In this document: one piece after another, positions 1 through 22,984 of the stretch
How the letters are laid out: each line of letters starts with the position of its first letter
Numbering within the stretch: position 1 is the stretch's first letter
Origin: Acidomonas methanolica
Lineage (GTDB): Bacteria > Pseudomonadota > Alphaproteobacteria > Acetobacterales > Acetobacteraceae
Assembly: GCF_004346035.1 (NCBI RefSeq)
Contig: NZ_SLZN01000001.1
Coordinates: forward strand, 1 to 64,000
Direction of reading: 5' to 3'
DNA length: 64,000 nt
Translations under genes and position numbers: made by a program
Notes under the pieces: generated by a model
Databases searched by the model: none
Told to the model about the DNA's origin: nothing
Seen by the model: only the letters and a program-made list of their open reading frames with translations

Positions 1-116
1 TAGAACGTCGCATCGCTGATCCCGTGCTTGCGGCACAGATCCGCCGCCGTCGCGCCCGCCTGATGCTCTTTCAGGAGCCCGATAATCTGGTCCTGCGTAA
101 ATCGTGCTTTCTTCAT
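1..116 (-). CDS. IS3-family transposase OrfA, N-terminal fragment (runs off window)
   Basis: The first 38 codons read MKKARFTQDQIIGLLKEHQA followed by GATAADLCRKHGISDATF. This is the helix-turn-helix start typical of IS3/IS407-type OrfA (transposase_8 family), the small DNA-binding protein that is normally joined to the DDE-type OrfB by a -1 frameshift. The start is ATG at 116. The frame is open to the window edge, so whether the copy is intact cannot be told. Confidence 0.8.
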   Translation of the reverse strand, partial: MKKARFTQDQIIGLLKEHQAGATAADLCRKHGISDATF

Positions 117-176
117 CGTCTGTCTCCAGTGGACAGACCTTACTTCAATTCGAGGGCATTTCAGGGGGCAAGGTCA
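1..176 (-). mobile_element. IS3-family insertion sequence, left end (partial)
   Basis: On the minus strand the element starts at position 176 with TGACCTTGCCCCCTGAAATG, which has the 5'-TG and C-rich tip seen at IS3-family (IS407-like group) inverted repeats. It is followed about 60 bp later by the start of an OrfA transposase. The rest of the element, including OrfB and the other inverted repeat, lies to the left of the window. Only the tip and OrfA start are seen; the subgroup is an inference. The end sits 29 bp before an antitoxin start codon. Confidence 0.75.
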
Positions 177-205
177 ATAAGACCACAGTGCCGAGGACAG
201 CTCCC

Positions 206-454
206 ATGCTGACGATCACACTGAGAGAGGCGAAGGCCGGTTTTTCTTCCCTGGTCGACAAGGCGCTCAAGGGTGAGTTCGTGACGATTACCCGCCATGG
301 CAAGCCTGTGGCCGCTCTGGTCTCCATCGAAGCCGCAGATGCCGGACGCAGGGCCATGGGACGGAAGCGTCCCAGTCTGGCATCCTATCTCCGGAGCTTT
401 CCTGACGAGGTTCTGACGCGGAATGCGTCGTCCTCGCGAGATGTCGACCTGTGA
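206..454 (+). CDS. Phd/YefM-family antitoxin
   Basis: This 82-residue protein begins MLTITLREAKAGFSSLVDKA and carries the Phd/YefM N-terminal fold (REAKAGFSSLVDKALKGEFV, then TRHGKPVAALVS). These antitoxins bind their own promoter and neutralise a partner toxin through the C-terminal tail. ATG 206 is chosen because the family alignment begins there; the longer open frame from 104 runs into the IS end. Its stop overlaps the start of the PIN toxin (GTGA at 451-454), so the pair is translationally coupled. The native promoter may have been displaced by the IS 29 bp upstream. Confidence 0.85.
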   Translation: MLTITLREAKAGFSSLVDKALKGEFVTITRHGKPVAALVSIEAADAGRRAMGRKRPSLASYLRSFPDEVLTRNASSSRDVDL

Positions 455-903
455 GAGGATACCTGCTCGACACCAATGTCATCTCGGTGCTGTCACCCTC
501 CAGGAACGAGGCATCGGAGGCATTTCTCGAATGGCTGGAGCGGATTGACGGGCAGGGCCAGCTCTACCTGTCGGTCGTGACAGTTCATGAAATCGAAAAG
601 GGGATCAGTCTGCTTGAGTATAAGGGCGCAACCGTTCGGGCGGCTGGCCTGAAGATCTGGCTTACCGGTCTGACGGCGACCTATGAGGACCGAATTGTTG
701 GAATCGATGCTTCGGTTGCGACAGTCGCCGGGCGACTGGAAGCAGATGCCCTTGCGGCTGGACATAATCCCGGAATGGCCGATGCGCTGATCGCTGGCAC
801 GGCAAAGGCGCACGATCTCCAGGTCGTCACGCGCAATCTGAAGCATTTCGCATCTTTTGATGTTGCGGCTTGGTCTCCTGATGAGGCTGTGACGGGTCAT
901 TGA
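451..903 (+). CDS. PIN-domain toxin (VapC/FitB type ribonuclease)
   Basis: This 150-residue protein has the PIN-domain acidic residues in place: D7 in LLDTNVIS, E47 in TVHEIEKGI, D111 in MADALIAGTA, and the T127-R128-N129 triad before the last strand. PIN toxins are Mg-dependent endoribonucleases that cut tRNA or rRNA. The GTG start at 451 overlaps the antitoxin stop by four bases, the usual antitoxin-first arrangement. The 'IEKGI' spacing and length resemble the FitB-like branch. No catalytic residue is missing, so it should be active; the target is unknown. Confidence 0.88.
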   Translation: MRGYLLDTNVISVLSPSRNEASEAFLEWLERIDGQGQLYLSVVTVHEIEKGISLLEYKGATVRAAGLKIWLTGLTATYEDRIVGIDASVATVAGRLEADALAAGHNPGMADALIAGTAKAHDLQVVTRNLKHFASFDVAAWSPDEAVTGH

Positions 904-975
904 TCGAGCGGTCACTCTTTCTCCCGCTAATCCGGCATTGGAAGCAGGCATGCGGCTCAGACACCAAACAAGATC

Positions 976-1002
976 TGAGCTCATTTCTCTGAATTGAGCC
1001 TA
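976..1002. promoter_or_regulatory. Candidate XRE operator half-sites upstream of the regulator
   Basis: Two copies of a TGAGCTYA-like motif lie 36-77 bp before the XRE start: TGAGCTCA at 976-983, a perfect palindrome, and TGAGCCTA at 995-1002. The same motif recurs three times on the far side of the gene (1650-1677). This suggests autoregulation. The link to this regulator is inferred. Confidence 0.4.
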
Positions 1003-1052
1003 TTTTTCACTCTCAACCCTGTGTACGCTAACCGAAAATGAGGAGGGTCAGT

Positions 1053-1643
1053 GTGTCAGGTTCGTTGGCAAAGGCGCATCAGAGTGCGATCAGAAATCAG
1101 GTTGGGGATGCGATCAGGCAGGCGCGGACGGAAGCTGGCATGCGCCAGCCTGAGTTGGCAAAGGCACTCCAGGTCAGCGTGACAACCATCAGTGAGTGGG
1201 AACTGGGCAAGAAGCTTCCTTCTCTCGACCGGCGCGATGAGATTGCCCAGGCTCTCAATATCAATATTGACGAGCTGTGCCCTGACATCGGTCATGTCGA
1301 AAAACTCACAAAGAATGATAAGCTGAGACTTGATCGGATTGTTGTGGATGGAAAGTCCCGTGTTGTCGCGTCAAAACGAGATCTTCTTGCAGATACGGCA
1401 GATCAGAATACGACTGATACCAGTAGTCAGGAGGATGACCGGCGGGATCTGTTTTTGATTCTTGGCGAGCTTCGCGGGTTTTTCCGGATGATGGCCGAAG
1501 ACGAGCAGCGTCTTACGCAGGAGCTTGCGGAACTGGCCCGCGGGAGCGGCAATCAGGATATCAGCAGGATAGCTGAACAACTCCAGGAACTTGCCGGGCG
1601 ACGCGTGGCCAGACTCGATACCCTGATCGATTCCATAAAATAA
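1053..1643 (+). CDS. XRE-family transcriptional regulator
   Basis: This protein of about 196 residues carries an HTH_XRE domain near residues 15-75 (IRQARTEAGMRQPELAKALQ, then VTTISEWELGKKLPSLDRRD), matching Cro/CI-type repressors. The C-terminal half is a polar, probably coiled region (LRGFFRMMAEDEQRLTQELA) without a recognisable enzyme domain, perhaps for dimerisation. GTG 1053 is chosen over the in-frame ATG at 1038 because AGGAGGG at 1041-1047 gives a near-perfect Shine-Dalgarno five bases before it. It probably controls the element's xis/int genes and itself through the TGAGCTYA repeats on both sides. Base composition is lower in GC than the neighbouring chromosome. Confidence 0.8.
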   Translation: MSGSLAKAHQSAIRNQVGDAIRQARTEAGMRQPELAKALQVSVTTISEWELGKKLPSLDRRDEIAQALNINIDELCPDIGHVEKLTKNDKLRLDRIVVDGKSRVVASKRDLLADTADQNTTDTSSQEDDRRDLFLILGELRGFFRMMAEDEQRLTQELAELARGSGNQDISRIAEQLQELAGRRVARLDTLIDSIK

Positions 1644-1648
1644 GCCAT

Positions 1649-1677
1649 ATAAGCTTATTAAGCTTGACATGAGCTTA
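1649..1677. repeat. Three tandem TRAGCTTR repeats, candidate operator with a -35 hexamer
   Basis: Directly after the XRE stop are TAAGCTTA (1650-1657, inside the 10-bp palindrome ATAAGCTTAT), TAAGCTTG (1659-1666) and TGAGCTTA (1670-1677). They are spaced 9 and 11 bp, about one helical turn. A perfect TTGACA (1664-1669) lies among them, but no good -10 follows at 17 bp. The layout looks like an operator controlling the downstream HTH/integrase genes. Confidence 0.45.
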
Positions 1678-1865
1678 TTTCGAGCCCACCTTCTCAGCGT
1701 TACGCCAATTCTGGCGCTCTCGGGAAGGATTTGGGCCATGCGGGACCATGCGCAACTTTTGATCGAACAAGCGGTCGCTGCCGTTTTGAGGCTACATCCA
1801 TCGCCCCTTTGCCTTGCGATACGTCGTGGGCTTGTTGGCGGCCTCTCCCGGGAAGGATTGGTGTG

Positions 1866-2204
1866 ATGCTCGCAGATCCCCCATCCGAGGTGGACGGCAT
1901 AATAAAGCTGCCTGTTTTCATGACTGTACCAGAGGCGGCTATGGCCGTGAGGCGTCATCCCGAGACCCTGCGTCGCGCCATTCGCGAGGGGCGTCTGGCT
2001 GCCTGGCGGCAGCGCGGATGCACGCTCGTGTCGGTTGCAGACCTTATGGCTTATATGGAGGGCTTCCTGTGCCCCGCCCAAAAAATGAAAACCCCCACCT
2101 CGAATTCCGGCGCGGCAAGCATCACATCGTCTGGTGGGAAGCGGGAAAACGACGTCGACTTTCGACTGGCTCAGCGGATGAGGAGCGCGCTCGACAAGCG
2201 TTAG
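1866..2204 (+). CDS. Excisionase-like helix-turn-helix protein
   Basis: The open frame encodes 112 residues. Residues about 17-70 form a short winged-HTH/MerR-like unit (MTVPEAAMAVRRHPETLRRA, then GRLAAWRQRGCTLVSVADL), the type found in Xis/AlpA directionality factors. The likely role is to help the adjacent integrase excise the element and to regulate its promoter. The last 45 codons overlap the integrase start in another frame and look like non-native sequence, so the functional protein is probably the N-terminal 70 residues. ATG 1866 and ATG 1920 are both possible starts; 1866 follows an AAGGATTGGTGTG stretch. The family assignment is tentative. Confidence 0.55.
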   Translation: MLADPPSEVDGIIKLPVFMTVPEAAMAVRRHPETLRRAIREGRLAAWRQRGCTLVSVADLMAYMEGFLCPAQKMKTPTSNSGAASITSSGGKRENDVDFRLAQRMRSALDKR

Positions 2205-3100
2205 TCGATTTTGAGCGGGCGTTGGAAAAACACCCGCTTAATATGCTCATGTCCGACGCCTTCGAGCGATATATTGAATCACGGCGCGGCAAGGTATCGG
2301 CACTGAAACGATTGCAGGAAGCAATCGTGGCGCTCGACAGGGCTATGGGTCATCTGAGAGTTGACCAGATTGAGCAGCGCATATGGGATCAGTATGCAGC
2401 AACGCGCACTCGGAAGCGGAGAAAGAGTGAGGATGTCCCCGTACCTGTATCAAACGGCACGCTTCGGCGGGAATTCAACGTCCTGCGCGCCACTATGCGC
2501 CGCGTCTGGAAGGACGGCTTCCTTATCCGGCCGCCGACAATCGAGCCGCCACGGGACTCCGCGCCACGGGATAGATATCTGACCAAAATTGAGGCAAAGC
2601 GTTTGCTCGACGCTTGTGAAACGCCTCATGTGCGCTTGTTTGTAGCGCTGGCGATCTACACGGGTGGTCGTAAGGGTTCAATACTTGCTTTAACGTGGGA
2701 TCGGGTCAATTTTCAGACGGGCATGATCGATTTTCAGGAGCCCGGCCGTGTGCTGACAACCAAGAGGCGTGCTGTGGTTCCGATGACCACAGCGCTCCGC
2801 AGGGAACTTGAGAGTGCTTGCAAAGCGCGAAGAGGTGACTTTGTGGTCCAATGGCACGACAAGCCGGTACCGAACGGATTACGTTGGTCTTTTGGGAAGG
2901 CTTGTGAGCGCGCCGGGTTGGACTGGAAGCCGACGCCACATCATCTCAAGCACTCTTTGGCAAGCTGGTTTGCGATGGACCGAATTCCAATTGACCAGGC
3001 AGCAGACTGGTTGGCCACTGATCCCGTCACCCTCCGGCGAGTCTATAGGAAGTTCGATCCGTCGTACCTCAGGACCATTGCAGATGCTTTTGAACTTTAG
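2069..3100 (+). CDS. int: Tyrosine-type site-specific integrase with altered active site
   Basis: This 343-residue phage-type integrase has an N-terminal DNA-binding segment, a core-binding domain (about 60-160) and a catalytic domain (170-335). Box I has R201 (YTGGRKGSILAL), the beta-strand lysine is K232, box II has H291 and the nucleophile is Y326. Two positions depart from the family: box II reads HHLKHS, giving K294 where arginine is expected, and the LGH motif reads LAT, giving T317 where histidine or tryptophan is expected. GTG 2069 is chosen because family members start MPRPKN-like, as here. It overlaps the HTH frame by 136 nt. It probably integrates the element at the adjacent tRNA-Glu, if still active. 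Confidence 0.85.
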   Translation: MPRPKNENPHLEFRRGKHHIVWWEAGKRRRLSTGSADEERARQALVDFERALEKHPLNMLMSDAFERYIESRRGKVSALKRLQEAIVALDRAMGHLRVDQIEQRIWDQYAATRTRKRRKSEDVPVPVSNGTLRREFNVLRATMRRVWKDGFLIRPPTIEPPRDSAPRDRYLTKIEAKRLLDACETPHVRLFVALAIYTGGRKGSILALTWDRVNFQTGMIDFQEPGRVLTTKRRAVVPMTTALRRELESACKARRGDFVVQWHDKPVPNGLRWSFGKACERAGLDWKPTPHHLKHSLASWFAMDRIPIDQAADWLATDPVTLRRVYRKFDPSYLRTIADAFEL

Positions 3101-3148
3101 TGGTCCATGTGGACCAGTAAGCCACCTGTGGATAAGTAAAATTATCCA
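3101..3148. repeat. Two inverted repeats between integrase and tRNA-Glu
   Basis: Immediately after the integrase stop is TGGTCCA-TG-TGGACCA (3101-3116), a perfect 7-bp inverted repeat. Then TGGATAA and TTATCCA (3129-3148) form another perfect 7-bp repeat around GTAAAA. They lie between the gene and the probable crossover site, where integrase arm-type sites or a terminator would be expected. Which role applies cannot be told. Confidence 0.6.
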
Positions 3149-3158
3149 GCAAAATCAA

Positions 3159-3234
3159 TGGCGTCCCATAGGGGATTCGAACCCCTGTTGCCGCCGTGAG
3201 AGGGCGGTGTCCTAGGCCTCTAGACGAATGGGAC
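3159..3234 (-). tRNA. tRNA-Glu (anticodon CTC)
   Basis: The minus-strand sequence begins GTCCCATTCGTCTAGAGGCC and folds as a cloverleaf. The 7-bp acceptor GTCCCAT pairs with ATGGGAC, the anticodon loop is CTCTCAC giving CUC, and the T arm contains GGTTCGAATC. CCA is encoded at 3161-3159. Its 3' end faces the integrase, so it is the likely attB for the element on the left. Confidence 0.95.
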
Positions 3235-3246
3235 GAGGCGAGGGGG

Positions 3247-3275
3247 TTGATAAGGGATGACGAAAAAGGAGGCAA
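3247..3275 (-). promoter_or_regulatory. Predicted tRNA-Glu promoter
   Basis: On the minus strand TTGCCT (3275-3270) and TATCAA (3252-3247) are separated by 17 bp, a sigma-70-like pair. A GC-rich discriminator follows and the tRNA begins 12 bp after the -10 box, as in stringently controlled stable-RNA promoters. Confidence 0.55.
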
Positions 3276-3299
3276 GGGAGAAAGAGCATATTTTCTCCC
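3276..3299. terminator. Hairpin downstream of the his/HIT operon
   Basis: GGGAGAAA and TTTCTCCC form a perfect 8-bp stem around an 8-nt loop, 18 bp after the HIT stop codon on the minus strand. A T-rich stretch (CCTTTTTCG) follows on that strand. It probably ends the histidine operon before the tRNA-Glu promoter. Confidence 0.6.
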
Positions 3300-3316
3300 G
3301 ATTGCCGCATTTTTTG

Positions 3317-3682
3317 TCAGGCGGTCCGGAGCGGTCCGAGCCGTTCGCCCGCGAGCAGGTGAACGTGGTAGTGGGGCACTTCCTGACCGGCGTTCGGGCC
3401 GGTATTGCTCAGCAGGCGATAGCCGCTTTGCTCGACATCGAGCTTGCGGGCGACCTCGCCGACGGCCCGGGTGAAGCCGGTGATTTCTGCATCCGATGCG
3501 CGGGCGCTGAAATCGGCATGGGACATATACCGTCCGCGCGGAATCACCAGCACATGGACAGGGGCCTTGGGCGCGATATCGGGAAAGGCGAGGGCGTATT
3601 CGTCCTCGTAAACGGCCTGAACGGGAATTTCGCCCCGCAGAATACGGGCAAAGATGTTCAGGTCGTCATAAGGATCGGACAT
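3317..3682 (-). CDS. HIT-family nucleotide-binding protein
   Basis: This 121-residue protein ends with the histidine triad H104-Y-H106-V-H108 (PHYHVHLLAG) that defines the HIT superfamily. Such proteins hydrolyse purine nucleotide phosphoramidates or related adenylates (HinT/Fhit type). The N-terminal IFARILRGEIP and VLVIPRGRYMS stretches also match HinT. It is the last gene of the his operon; its ATG overlaps the hisE stop by one base (TGATG). The hisE-HIT order recurs in alphaproteobacteria, but a direct role in histidine synthesis is not established. Confidence 0.92.
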   Translation of the reverse strand: MSDPYDDLNIFARILRGEIPVQAVYEDEYALAFPDIAPKAPVHVLVIPRGRYMSHADFSARASDAEITGFTRAVGEVARKLDVEQSGYRLLSNTGPNAGQEVPHYHVHLLAGERLGPLRTA

Positions 3683-4083
3683 CAGACATTCTCCTTCGGA
3701 CGGGATGCTTTCTCGGCCACGCCACTCATGGCTTCGCGCCGCCGCAATTCAGACCAGACATCCTCCGGCTGCACGCCCGCATCCACCCACATGACCAGCA
3801 GGTGATACAGGACATCCGCGCTTTCGCCGATCAATTCACGCTTGTTTCCCGCGACGGCTTCGATCAGGCATTCGACGGCTTCTTCGCCGAATTTCTGCGC
3901 GATCTTCCGTGTGCCGCGCGACAGGAGGCGCGCCGAGTGACTCAACGCGGGATCGGTTCCACGCCGGGCGGTGATGGTCTGATAGAGCGTGTCCAGCACA
4001 CTCGCGTCAATTTCCGGCGGCACGGGAACGGCACTCTTGCGCCCGGTGGATTTCTTGTCGGATTTAGGCGTCGCCTTGGCCAA
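3682..4083 (-). CDS. hisE: Phosphoribosyl-ATP pyrophosphatase
   Basis: HisE hydrolyses phosphoribosyl-ATP to phosphoribosyl-AMP, step 2 of histidine synthesis. The 133-residue protein has the all-alpha MazG-like metal motif ([11 protein letters not shown] near 66-76 and [11 protein letters not shown] near 87-97). A lysine-rich N-terminal extension of about 25 residues is longer than usual. The start is TTG 4083, preceded by GAGGAAGAGGAC; no in-frame ATG exists before the core domain, so TTG is the best choice but not certain. It is separated from hisF by 181 nt, unlike the tightly overlapping genes before it. Confidence 0.92.
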
Positions 4084-4264
4084 GTCCTCTTCCTCAAGTT
4101 CTGGTCAGCAGGTGCCAACCTTGTTGGCTCAAATCCGTCCCGGGCGCAAGGAAGCCTCAATGGCGATAGCGCCTCGGCCTGATTTTCGAGAGGGCGCGCG
4201 CCTTTTGTCGGATGCGGGCCGGAGTTCGGCGTGGCGACGTCGATAGTCAAACCGACGCGCGTCC

Positions 4265-20186: not shown

Positions 20187-22984
20187 CCGAACGCGCCTGA
20201 CCTGTGCATGATGGCGACGCCGACCTCGCGCAACAGGGCGAAAAGCCGCAGCATCGGCTGGATGATGTCCTCATGCTCCCGTCGGAAGGTCGAACTCTCG
20301 CGCGGCGCGGCGGGCTCGTGGAAATCGATCCCGTCGATGTCGTCGCCGCCGAGCGGAAAGATCTGCGCCACGCGCTGTACGGCGGTCTCGATGTCCAGCC
20401 GGACGATCATCGCCGTGATCGCCTCGCGCGAGATATTGTTGCGCGGGCTGAAATAGGGGATGCGTGTGGAAATCATCCAGATCGTCTGGATGATGGCCGT
20501 GCGGATGGCGTGCAGCAATTTCTCGTCGCTCTCCATGCGCGGCGCGTCCCGCCAGACCATGCGCAGCTTGAGATGATCGGCCTGGAGACGGCGGAACATG
20601 GCGGGCAGGCGGCGCCAGAACTCCTGATCTTCGAGACCCTTCGAGAGATCCATGAACCGGCGCATCGTCTCGTCGTCGCGGGCCTGGGCCGCGCGGTCGA
20701 GCCATGTGCCGGGATCGAACAGACGCAGCGTGGCGCGCAGGACGCCGAGGTCGGAATGGGCGAGTGCCTGACGGGCGAAATCCAGCGCCACGCTGAACCG
20801 CGCGCTGTTCTGGCTGTAGATCTCGAATTCCTCGTTATGGCGCGAGATCGCCTCGCCCAGGCCTTGCAGCGTGTTGGCGTACCAGCCGAGTTGCTGGAGA
20901 ATCGCATTGTTCGGGATGGCGCGAAGCTGGCTGGGATGGGTGATGCGGGCGACGGTCACGCCGTCTCCCTGCCGGGCTGAAGGGCGCGATCCCGTCTTGT
21001 CGATCAGCGCCGGGCCGAACGCGCCGAGCAGGGCGGAATAGCCCGGATCGGCCACCAGCCCCGTCATGGACAGGGCGATGGTGGAAAAGAAATCGGACGA
21101 GAAATCCGGCTCGTCATAGATCGGATCGGGCGGCACATGGTGCAGGTCGCGCAGGCTGTGCTCGGCGATGGCGGCGATGGTCGCTTCGGCGATATGGTTG
21201 GTGCCGAAGAGCATGTAGCCGTCTCCGCCCTGGAACGCACATTCCTCCCGCACGCGAATCTGGGCCTGTTCGAACAGCGTGGCGGTGTGCGGCGGAGAGA
21301 AATAGGCCAGGCGATCGGCGAAGCTGAACGGATGCGCGCCGCGGCCGATGCTCTCCCCATGCGTGTCGAACAGCACGAGTTCGAGATCGTCGAGCCCGTG
21401 CTTCTTCATCAGGGCCAGAGTCCGCAGCCGCATGCGCTCCACGAGATTGGTGGCGGCGATCTGACCGACGTAACGCCCCGAATCCGAATAGCCGAATTGC
21501 AGGCAGATGCGGCCATTGGCGCGGAGATAGCTATGCCAATGCGGCGAGCGGAAGGCCTCCTCCAGCAGGACCTCGCCATGTTCGAGCGCGTCCTGCGTTT
21601 CGAAGAGCGGTGAAATCTCGATCTGCCGGTCCTGGATGCCGAACAGGCGGGCCAGCCAGAGCGTGGCCAGAAGCGTGAAGCCGCTTTCCGTCTCGGCGAC
21701 GAGAAAACGGATCGGCGTTTCCGAATCGATATGCTTCAGCGTCTGCGCCATCGTCATCATCAACTGGGCCGCCGAGGACTGCTCGGTCATCAGCGCGCCA
21801 AAATCGACGGGCAGCGGCGTCAGGGTATCGAGCGCCTCGTTGATCTGCGTCAGCACCACGCGGCGGCGCGACGGAATCGCGGGATCGTCCTCGATGCCGA
21901 GCCGCGTGCGTGCGGCGTTATAGATCTGCGTCGCGTTCAGGCGCGTATGGATATGGGCCAGGCTGAGGCCGTGGGCGAGGAATCCGGCGCGGGCGACGAG
22001 CAGGTCATGGCGCGCGGGCGCGTCCAGCTTGGCCAGAGCGTCCTCGAAGAGCGGCAGCGTTTCGGCGGCGGATGTCAGAGCATCGCCGTGATGCGAGACG
22101 AGCGCCTTGGCGAAGGTCGCGATATCCTGCGGGTCGTGACGATGGGCATGCGGACAGGCGGCCTCCTGCATCCGCACGATCTCGATGGCGCGCTCGATCT
22201 TCCGCGCCAGCGGCGTGTTCTTGGGAAGCAGGGGGCGGATCTGCGCGGAAAGACGCTCGAATTGCCGCCGCTTGAGCGCGAGGCGGATGCGGAGCGTGTC
22301 CCACCATTTGATGTCGCTGCGCCCGTCCGTGTCGAAGCCGACCCAGCTGGACAGGATGATCGGCGCAGGGGCGAGCAGGGCGTCCGGCCATCGCTTCGCC
22401 GCCTCGCGCAGGATCGCGCCGGCGTAGAAATCGAGAGCGTTCCGCCCCCGCAGGATCGCTGCTGTGGCGGCCGAAAGCTCGTCGGCGAGGGTCGGCGGTC
22501 CGGAGCGGCGATGCGTTTTCAGCGTCGGAAGCGTGCCGTCCGGCGTGTCGGCCAGCCCTTCCAGCGCCTCATAGACGTGCGACGCGAGGGCGAAGGTCGG
22601 ATGGGCGGTGAACACCGCCGCGAAGGCGGGGCGCGAGACCGCCGCCGCCAGGGCGAGGGGATCGGAATGGGCCGCGACGAGGCGCGCCGCGGCGTTCCTC
22701 AGCCGTTCCTCGGGGGAGAGGCCGGAATTGAGCGCGAGATAGGCCCGCAAGCGCGCCGCCCGCTTCCGCGCGGCGTCGTCGCGCAAGGTGCGGACGACGT
22801 CTTCGAGCGCATCGACGGATAACGAGCCGTCGGCAAGCGAATCGGCGATCTCGGCATACATCGCCTGGACGGAATCCGCCGCGCCGCGTCCCTCGGCCGC
22901 GAGGCGGTCCAGTTCCCGCATCCGCTCCTGCAGGGCGATCGTGCAGGAGGCGGATGAAGTCGAAAGGGGGGTGGCGCTGGTCAC
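20183..22984 (-). CDS. ppc: Phosphoenolpyruvate carboxylase homologue, divergent active site
   Basis: The 933-residue protein has the PEPC length and several family blocks: VFTAHPTFALASH with catalytic-type H128, SPLFETQDALEHGEVLLEEA, QFGYSDS (498-502), and SRPSAR followed by LRAIPNNAILQQLGW. PEPC adds bicarbonate to PEP to make oxaloacetate, an anaplerotic need in acetic acid bacteria. Several expected residues differ: GYSDSAKD-type lysine is R504, the HGRGG loop reads THGESIGRGAHP (541-552), the GGDRDGNP motif reads GFDTDGRS, and the C-terminal RNTG is absent. It may be a divergent active form or a homologue with another role. It overlaps the decarboxylase 3' end. Confidence 0.85.
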   Translation of the reverse strand: MTSATPLSTSSASCTIALQERMRELDRLAAEGRGAADSVQAMYAEIADSLADGSLSVDALEDVVRTLRDDAARKRAARLRAYLALNSGLSPEERLRNAAARLVAAHSDPLALAAAVSRPAFAAVFTAHPTFALASHVYEALEGLADTPDGTLPTLKTHRRSGPPTLADELSAATAAILRGRNALDFYAGAILREAAKRWPDALLAPAPIILSSWVGFDTDGRSDIKWWDTLRIRLALKRRQFERLSAQIRPLLPKNTPLARKIERAIEIVRMQEAACPHAHRHDPQDIATFAKALVSHHGDALTSAAETLPLFEDALAKLDAPARHDLLVARAGFLAHGLSLAHIHTRLNATQIYNAARTRLGIEDDPAIPSRRRVVLTQINEALDTLTPLPVDFGALMTEQSSAAQLMMTMAQTLKHIDSETPIRFLVAETESGFTLLATLWLARLFGIQDRQIEISPLFETQDALEHGEVLLEEAFRSPHWHSYLRANGRICLQFGYSDSGRYVGQIAATNLVERMRLRTLALMKKHGLDDLELVLFDTHGESIGRGAHPFSFADRLAYFSPPHTATLFEQAQIRVREECAFQGGDGYMLFGTNHIAEATIAAIAEHSLRDLHHVPPDPIYDEPDFSSDFFSTIALSMTGLVADPGYSALLGAFGPALIDKTGSRPSARQGDGVTVARITHPSQLRAIPNNAILQQLGWYANTLQGLGEAISRHNEEFEIYSQNSARFSVALDFARQALAHSDLGVLRATLRLFDPGTWLDRAAQARDDETMRRFMDLSKGLEDQEFWRRLPAMFRRLQADHLKLRMVWRDAPRMESDEKLLHAIRTAIIQTIWMISTRIPYFSPRNNISREAITAMIVRLDIETAVQRVAQIFPLGGDDIDGIDFHEPAAPRESSTFRREHEDIIQPMLRLFALLREVGVAIMHRSGAFG

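Follow-up and report, generated by a model that had tools for sequence, protein, structure and literature searches.

A putative XRE-family resident repressor and conserved palindromic sites beside the excision genes of a tRNA-Glu island in Acidomonas methanolica

Results

The present study concerns a regulatory module at the start of a 64,000-nucleotide stretch of Acidomonas methanolica DNA (assembly GCF_004346035.1, contig NZ_SLZN01000001.1, positions 1 to 64,000; hereafter the window). In this module the gene of an XRE-family regulator (xre, 1053..1643, + strand, 196 amino acids, GTG start) lies beside the excisionase-like gene xis and the tyrosine integrase gene int of an element integrated at a tRNA-Glu gene, a location expected of a CI/ImmR-type repressor. 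It was found that like operator-type sites stand on both sides of xre, including in the proposed xis promoter; at the sequence level this holds in 6/6 loci, that is, the window and five close orthologues, although no clear promoter of xre itself was seen. The XRE protein is probably a resident repressor resembling CI and ImmR, which would close the xis/int promoter and regulate itself. Gene order, sites, spacing, conservation and the overlap with promoter-like sequence were established by sequence comparison.

An initial annotation of this DNA had described TGAGCTYA-like sequences twice upstream and three times downstream of xre. The upstream copies (976-1002) were confirmed base by base at 976-983 and 995-1002. 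With the flanks of the orthologues the motif could be refined from TGAGCTYA to the palindrome TRRGCYYA, which is fitted by site U1 (976..983, TGAGCTCA); U2 (995..1002, TGAGCCTA) follows 19 bp away, and both sites and their spacing are kept in 6/6 loci. The downstream copies (1650-1677), said to lie about a helical turn apart, are all present as 1650-1657 TAAGCTTA, 1659-1666 TAAGCTTG and 1670-1677 TGAGCTTA, with starts 9 and 11 bp apart and TTGACA at 1664-1669, but the middle copy occurs in 0/5 orthologues and is thus probably a chance match. The outer two, site B (1650..1657) and site C (1670..1677), are found in all six loci. Two sites had been missed. Site A (1641..1648, TAAGCCAT) lies over the xre stop codon and has two mismatches in the window; it is exact in three of the five other loci and has one mismatch in the remaining two (Gluconobacter, Brytella). 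Site D (1681..1688, CGAGCCCA), 11 bp from C, has one mismatch in the window and is exact in 5/5 other loci. The array of A to D has starts at 0/9/29/40 in the window (A-B 9, B-C 20, C-D 11) and at about 0/11/30/41 bp in three relatives (spacings 11, 19, 11). The A-B spacing is 9 in Gluconobacter and Brytella as well, while B-C is 19 in every locus save the window and C-D is 11 in all six.

The TTGACA (1664..1669, + strand) would serve as the -35-like element of a proposed xis/int promoter; it is kept in 5/6 loci and reads TTGATG in Gluconobacter vitians. A -10-like hexamer, CACCTT (1687..1692, + strand), stands 17 bp past it and fits YANNYT in 6/6 loci, with the variants CACCTT, CATTTT (three loci), TAATCT and TACTCT, although it is weak. 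The unit TTGACA/TTGATG-N17-YANNYT encloses C and D in every locus: C fills the spacer, and D covers the start of the -10-like hexamer, which it overlaps by two bases. The spacer and -10 region is a usual position for a repressor that blocks RNA polymerase. Upstream of xre a conserved -10-like hexamer, TA(G/C)(G/T)CT, was seen by eye in the alignments about 25-31 bp before the start.

A contig scan of bacterial genomes gave six loci, five with a regulator 79-84% identical (Acetobacter tropicalis, Acetobacter sp. AN02, A. persici, Gluconobacter vitians and Brytella acorum, thus three genera) and that of Acetobacter musti, with a regulator 38% identical. The five close loci keep the order phd-pin-xre-xis-int and the flanking repeats. 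Homologous elements with this regulator but without the repeats would have spoken against the earlier view; none was met among the close orthologues, since in 5/5 of them both pair and array are found in the same places. The integrase of A. persici matches in two pieces and may be broken.

The literal TGAGCTYA is not unusual in the window (three matches on two strands; shuffle mean 2.01, at least 3 in 35/100 shuffles). With the refined palindrome, four of the five exact matches in 64 kb fall within 976-1677. Against dinucleotide shuffles the exact upstream count of 2 in the window (mean 0.034) was reached by 2/2000 and the downstream count of 2 (mean 0.067) by 3/2000. Each locus has 2 exact upstream matches, a number that only 1 or 2 of 2000 shuffles attain, and the downstream counts of 3 or 4 in the relatives were reached by 0/2000; one of the four downstream matches in Gluconobacter lies outside the array. 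When one mismatch was allowed, the downstream counts were reached by 1 to 48 of 2000 shuffles. Conservation was then compared by column, with gapped columns dropped and site A not counted as a site. In U1, U2, B, C and D, 19/20 columns of the T/G/C/A core are invariant vs 103/186 columns outside (P 0.0002), and a transversion occurs in 0/40 site columns vs 36/186 outside (P 0.0005). The core of these five sites changes only once, from T to C in the D site of the window; all other variation inside them consists of transitions that preserve TRRGCYYA.

The 19-bp pair pattern occurs at one place in the 3.68 Mb genome of A. methanolica, with a control of 0. In eight sequences scanned for pairs (five island loci, A. 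musti, the contig C69 of A. methanolica and the 64-kb window), exact sites within 60 bp of each other lie beside xre, except for one TGGGCCCA pair in Gluconobacter. This pair, TGGGCCCA-N3-TGGGCCCA at Gluconobacter contig 22000-22018 (L042, about 10000), stands some 100 bp beyond the attachment core. The contigs scanned showed no paired sites beside hsd and the other cargo genes described below, and the regulator thus appears to serve its own module. The contig C76 of A. methanolica holds no TRRGCYYA site.

The GTG at 1053 is preceded by a Shine-Dalgarno sequence, AGGAGG, at 1041-1046 and is kept in 6/6 loci; it is the likely start of xre. The protein belongs to the HTH_3 family (50.1 bits, Pfam cutoff 23). 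Its Pfam matches fall in the helix-turn-helix (HTH) region, and those in PHROGs and NCBIfam are centred on it, the NCBIfam ones below cutoff. In a structure model (mean predicted local distance difference test score, pLDDT, 67.5; predicted template modelling score, pTM, 0.41) the HTH is confident, residues 78-132 form a strand region of low confidence and two long helices span 124-195. The model and a PDB fold search gave an XRE fold for the N-terminal part, from which nothing further was learned; for the C-terminal part the PDB search gave no usable match, and relatives of solved structure span the HTH or little more. A profile comparison showed no similarity between the XRE and xis proteins. 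Two other assignments were tried. As an XRE antitoxin (Y4mF/HipB, PezA or MqsA) all three NCBIfam scores are below cutoff, and the neighbouring PIN toxin is already paired with a Phd antitoxin; this reading was rejected. As an RstR repressor the protein scores 52.3 bits, under the NCBIfam NF041951 cutoff of 80.

The earlier view of a repressor controlling itself and xis/int agrees with the kept pair and array and with the position of the array within promoter-like sequence before xis-int; its further part, an immunity switch, was not upheld. The genes xre, xis and int are all on the + strand and do not show the divergent layout of repressor and early genes. The module showed no second repressor of the cro type. 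By Pfam, its five proteins include no S24 cleavage domain and no ImmA-type (M78) protease, and the same holds for the island proteins of the relatives scanned (a subset of island genes). Neither inactivation route known for repressors of the CI/ImmR type, S24 autocleavage or an ImmA protease, was thus seen.

By Pfam the module reads Phd antitoxin, PIN toxin, HTH_3, HTH_17 and tyrosine integrase, followed by tRNA-Glu on the opposite strand. The Phd/YefM-family antitoxin gene phd (206..454, + strand; PF02604, 47.9 bits) is 93-96% identical across the five orthologous loci, and the PIN-domain, VapC-like toxin gene pin that overlaps it (451..903, + strand; PF01850, 52.2 bits) is 89-92% identical. 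The xis gene (1866..2204, + strand; HTH_17, 34.5 bits) encodes an excisionase-family DNA-binding protein by NCBIfam TIGR01764 (29.4 bits, cutoff 28.8). The overlapping int (2069..3100, + strand) matches PF00589 with 52.2 bits and a PHROG integrase with 136 bits. Tyrosine recombinases usually carry an HxxR motif; in the 6/6 integrases aligned from the window and its relatives (the two-piece A. persici gene was left out) this place reads HHLKHS or HHIKHS, lysine replacing the arginine. Between xre and xis a possible open reading frame (ORF) of 42 codons (1738..1866, + strand) is open in the same frame in 6/6 loci, with 14/12/22 variable bases at the three codon positions, and had no Pfam match; the evidence for it as a real ORF is suggestive only. 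In the window, A. tropicalis, AN02 and A. persici the ORF ends in a stop codon that overlaps the start of xis (TGATG), and by eye its product looks like a truncated version of the xis HTH_17 helix. An Rfam scan of 1-4200 gave the tRNA as the sole match.

The tRNA-Glu gene lies at 3159-3234 on the minus strand, and its 3' part is the attachment core (3159..3205), of which the 47 bp are repeated exactly at Brytella contig 45-91. The core recurs exactly once more in the genome of A. methanolica, at 530-576 of contig C76 (L065), where it adjoins a stretch that by eye resembles the beginning of a further integrase; a segment of 90 residues from this stretch had no Pfam match. To the right of 21895 in Gluconobacter (L041+L042), 22128 in AN02 (L039+L040) and 18571 in Brytella (L043+L044) the core is followed by other sequence where the remainder of the tRNA would be expected, which suggests islands stacked in tandem at tRNA-Glu; at the Brytella position there are only 17 bp of the core.

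The A. tropicalis island carries hsdM, hsdS, hsdR and a YgjP-like metallopeptidase, and that of Brytella carries hsdR, hsdS, hsdM and a Drt3a/Drt3b pair. The window itself begins inside a transposase gene (Pfam HTH_Tnp_1), and its positions 1-176 also begin contig C69 (L060), at 97% identity. The hsdM of C69 is 97% identical to that of Brytella over the 466 residues searched, and its hsdR is reduced to residues 919-1059 of the 1060-residue Brytella hsdR. Thus in A. methanolica the cargo looks decayed and the regulatory end intact, if C69 and C76 belong, as their similarity would indicate, to the same island as the window; the contigs are unjoined. The hsdS of L038 (7371-8388) differs from that of the AN02 contig save for a central 167-bp stretch, with flanks 88-92% identical, a case of swapped specificity parts. 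Left of the hsd genes in Gluconobacter vitians (L041 7664-10120) there is a defence-like protein of 818 residues that has a SIR2-like domain as well as weak STAND-NTPase matches, and for which PADLOC gave no match. Between hsdS and hsdM of Brytella acorum (L043 11889-12293) lies a gene for a nucleotidyltransferase substrate-binding protein (PF08780, HepT-like), which could be one partner of a toxin-antitoxin pair.

Full-length relatives of the regulator are few. Whole-length XRE relatives were found in 7/395 sampled genomes of the order, including A. methanolica (E 1e-13, with up to 8 candidates scored in each genome), and in 1/26 Gluconobacter genomes. In Acetobacter 6/49 genomes gave matches at E 1e-10, which in two genomes were limited to the HTH. 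A family sample at E 0.001 gave matches in 115/397 genomes, of which only 5, our own included, reach at least 79% identity, the others being HTH-level. In viral contigs a single-protein query gave 0 relatives in 15 stretches, and an alignment query gave two weak ones (31 and 34%) among 50 stretches. Plasmid and phage records (3 and 41) gave partial matches only, below 60% identity and none spanning 80% of the query. Judged by titles, no publication on this regulator or motif was seen, which is not a claim of its absence from print.

Discussion

Our data point to a probable resident repressor which would keep a tRNA-Glu island in place. The 196-residue XRE protein would bind the palindrome TRRGCYYA as the resident repressor of the island. 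At the downstream array the bound protein would cover the spacer and -10 region of the promoter for the small ORF, xis and int, and with this promoter covered excision would be kept off. At U1-U2, with their spacing of 19 bp, it could tune its own level. Binding by the XRE protein, repression, autoregulation with its sign, and relief are what we infer from this arrangement.

A number of observations weigh against this reading. TRRGCYYA was learned from the same loci on which it was tested, so the shuffle test is partly circular, and with one mismatch allowed the upstream counts become ordinary (228-332/2000 shuffles; window 278/2000). An exact copy of the 11-bp pair pattern is absent from the A. 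methanolica genome, because D is imperfect there, and site A bears motif-breaking changes in 3/6 loci. The recognition helix is identical in all six close regulators, so that co-variation of site and protein cannot be seen. A scan of 880-1900 for consensus promoters (9 of 12) and terminators found none, for which reason the -10 is taken as weak. The xre gene itself lacks a clear promoter; by eye no -35-like hexamer was recognised 16-18 bp before its -10-like hexamer.

Counter-evidence also comes from the distant relative A. musti. It has xre, xis and int adjoining tRNA-Glu and a nearly identical recognition helix (phd and pin had no match in the 12.4 kb examined), and yet its flanks are without the TRRGCYYA array. 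TRRGC/GCYYA half-sites are not enriched there either (2 downstream, reached by 562/2000 shuffles; 1 upstream, 1081/2000). Either the sites have drifted or the motif is confined to the close group. The case of A. musti speaks against extending the reading broadly, and it is the reason why we hold the repressor reading at probable and no higher. It should be noted here that A. musti has a perfect TCGCTTA-N9-TAAGCGA inverted repeat across the end of xre (L037 6542-6564), which may be a diverged operator of its regulator.

One refinement of the repressor reading, which we regard as possible but tentative, is that XRE would activate its own gene when bound at U1-U2 and repress xis/int when bound at the array, in a positive feedback like that of lambda CI. 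The conserved -10-like hexamer without a -35 before xre, with U2 near the place expected of the -35, would suit such an activator. The gene could, however, be read from the upstream phd-pin promoter, and the data are equally compatible with autorepression. A more speculative and rather doubtful extension is a co-directional switch with a single regulator, in which the XRE protein, by its long helical C-terminal part, would bridge the palindromes of abutted halves (11/19/11 bp), activate its own gene and shut xis/int. If this were so, the defence islands of acetic acid bacteria would flip between locked and excising states without a cro-like partner or a cleavage domain.

It could also be the HTH_17 xis protein or the integrase, and not XRE, that occupies the sites, for example in excisionase autoregulation. 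The array immediately precedes xis, and the ability of an HTH_17 excisionase to shut its own promoter is described for RdfS of ICEMlSymR7A in the excerpted text of PMC11963761. This we consider unlikely. The upstream pair flanks xre rather than xis, and the symmetric palindromes would fit an XRE dimer. As for the integrase, the sites lie about 1.5-2.2 kb off the attachment core, which by the usual distances is too far for arm sites, and that assignment was rejected.

Controller (C) proteins of restriction-modification (R-M) systems deserve mention, as the relatives' islands carry hsd genes and a Foldseek search with the model places C.BclI first, C.AhdI standing at rank 15 among ClgR, DdrO and others. 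It is nevertheless very improbable that XRE controls island R-M genes, and the assignment was rejected. C proteins are short and act on C-boxes at R-M promoters; the XRE protein has 196 residues vs 66-98 for the C proteins compared, its putative operators adjoin xis/int, the hsd genes of the contigs scanned have no paired sites nearby, and the recognition sequence differs. Equally improbable is that the sites are functionless sequence retained through recent common ancestry, since, although the loci are 77-92% identical along long stretches, 83/186 outside columns vary, 36 with transversions, while U1, U2, B, C and D vary by motif-keeping transitions with the one exception of D in the window, a rule from which site A departs.

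If the repressor reading holds, the module offers a testable control point for the excision of tRNA-Glu islands with type I restriction genes in acetic acid bacteria, one of which also carries the Drt3-type reverse-transcriptase pair. Regulation of this kind is familiar; what may be added is a precise operator code. Repressors of the lambda CI and SetR type have multiple operators at their own and at the early promoter. The present system resembles them in its multiple operator-like sites on the xre and xis/int sides and differs from them in having no S24 autocleavage domain by Pfam and no divergent cro-like gene seen. The mobile element ICEMlSymR7A of Mesorhizobium likewise couples an HTH_17 excisionase, RdfS, with a tyrosine integrase; unlike here, the control of RdfS is named as QseM and FseA, and XRE is not mentioned in the excerpted text (PMC11963761).

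Functionally the closest system appears to be ImmR of ICEBs1 from Bacillus subtilis, which, according to the part of PMC8960796 dealing with it, has 127 residues, is transcribed in the direction opposite to xis and undergoes cleavage by ImmA; the XRE regulator has 196 residues, is co-directional with xis and has no ImmA-like gene among the five module proteins. C.Csp231I, as described in the excerpt of PMC3115060, is a protein of 98 residues that recognises CTAAG-N5-CTTAG and controls R-M genes, whereas here the halves abut in TRRGCYYA and the context is that of xis/int. The likeness between the two lies in an XRE fold with extra C-terminal helices, in similar operator halves (TAAG/CTTA in C.Csp231I) and in a comparable spacing, the two operators of C.Csp231I being about 18 bp apart (PMC3115060, same excerpt).
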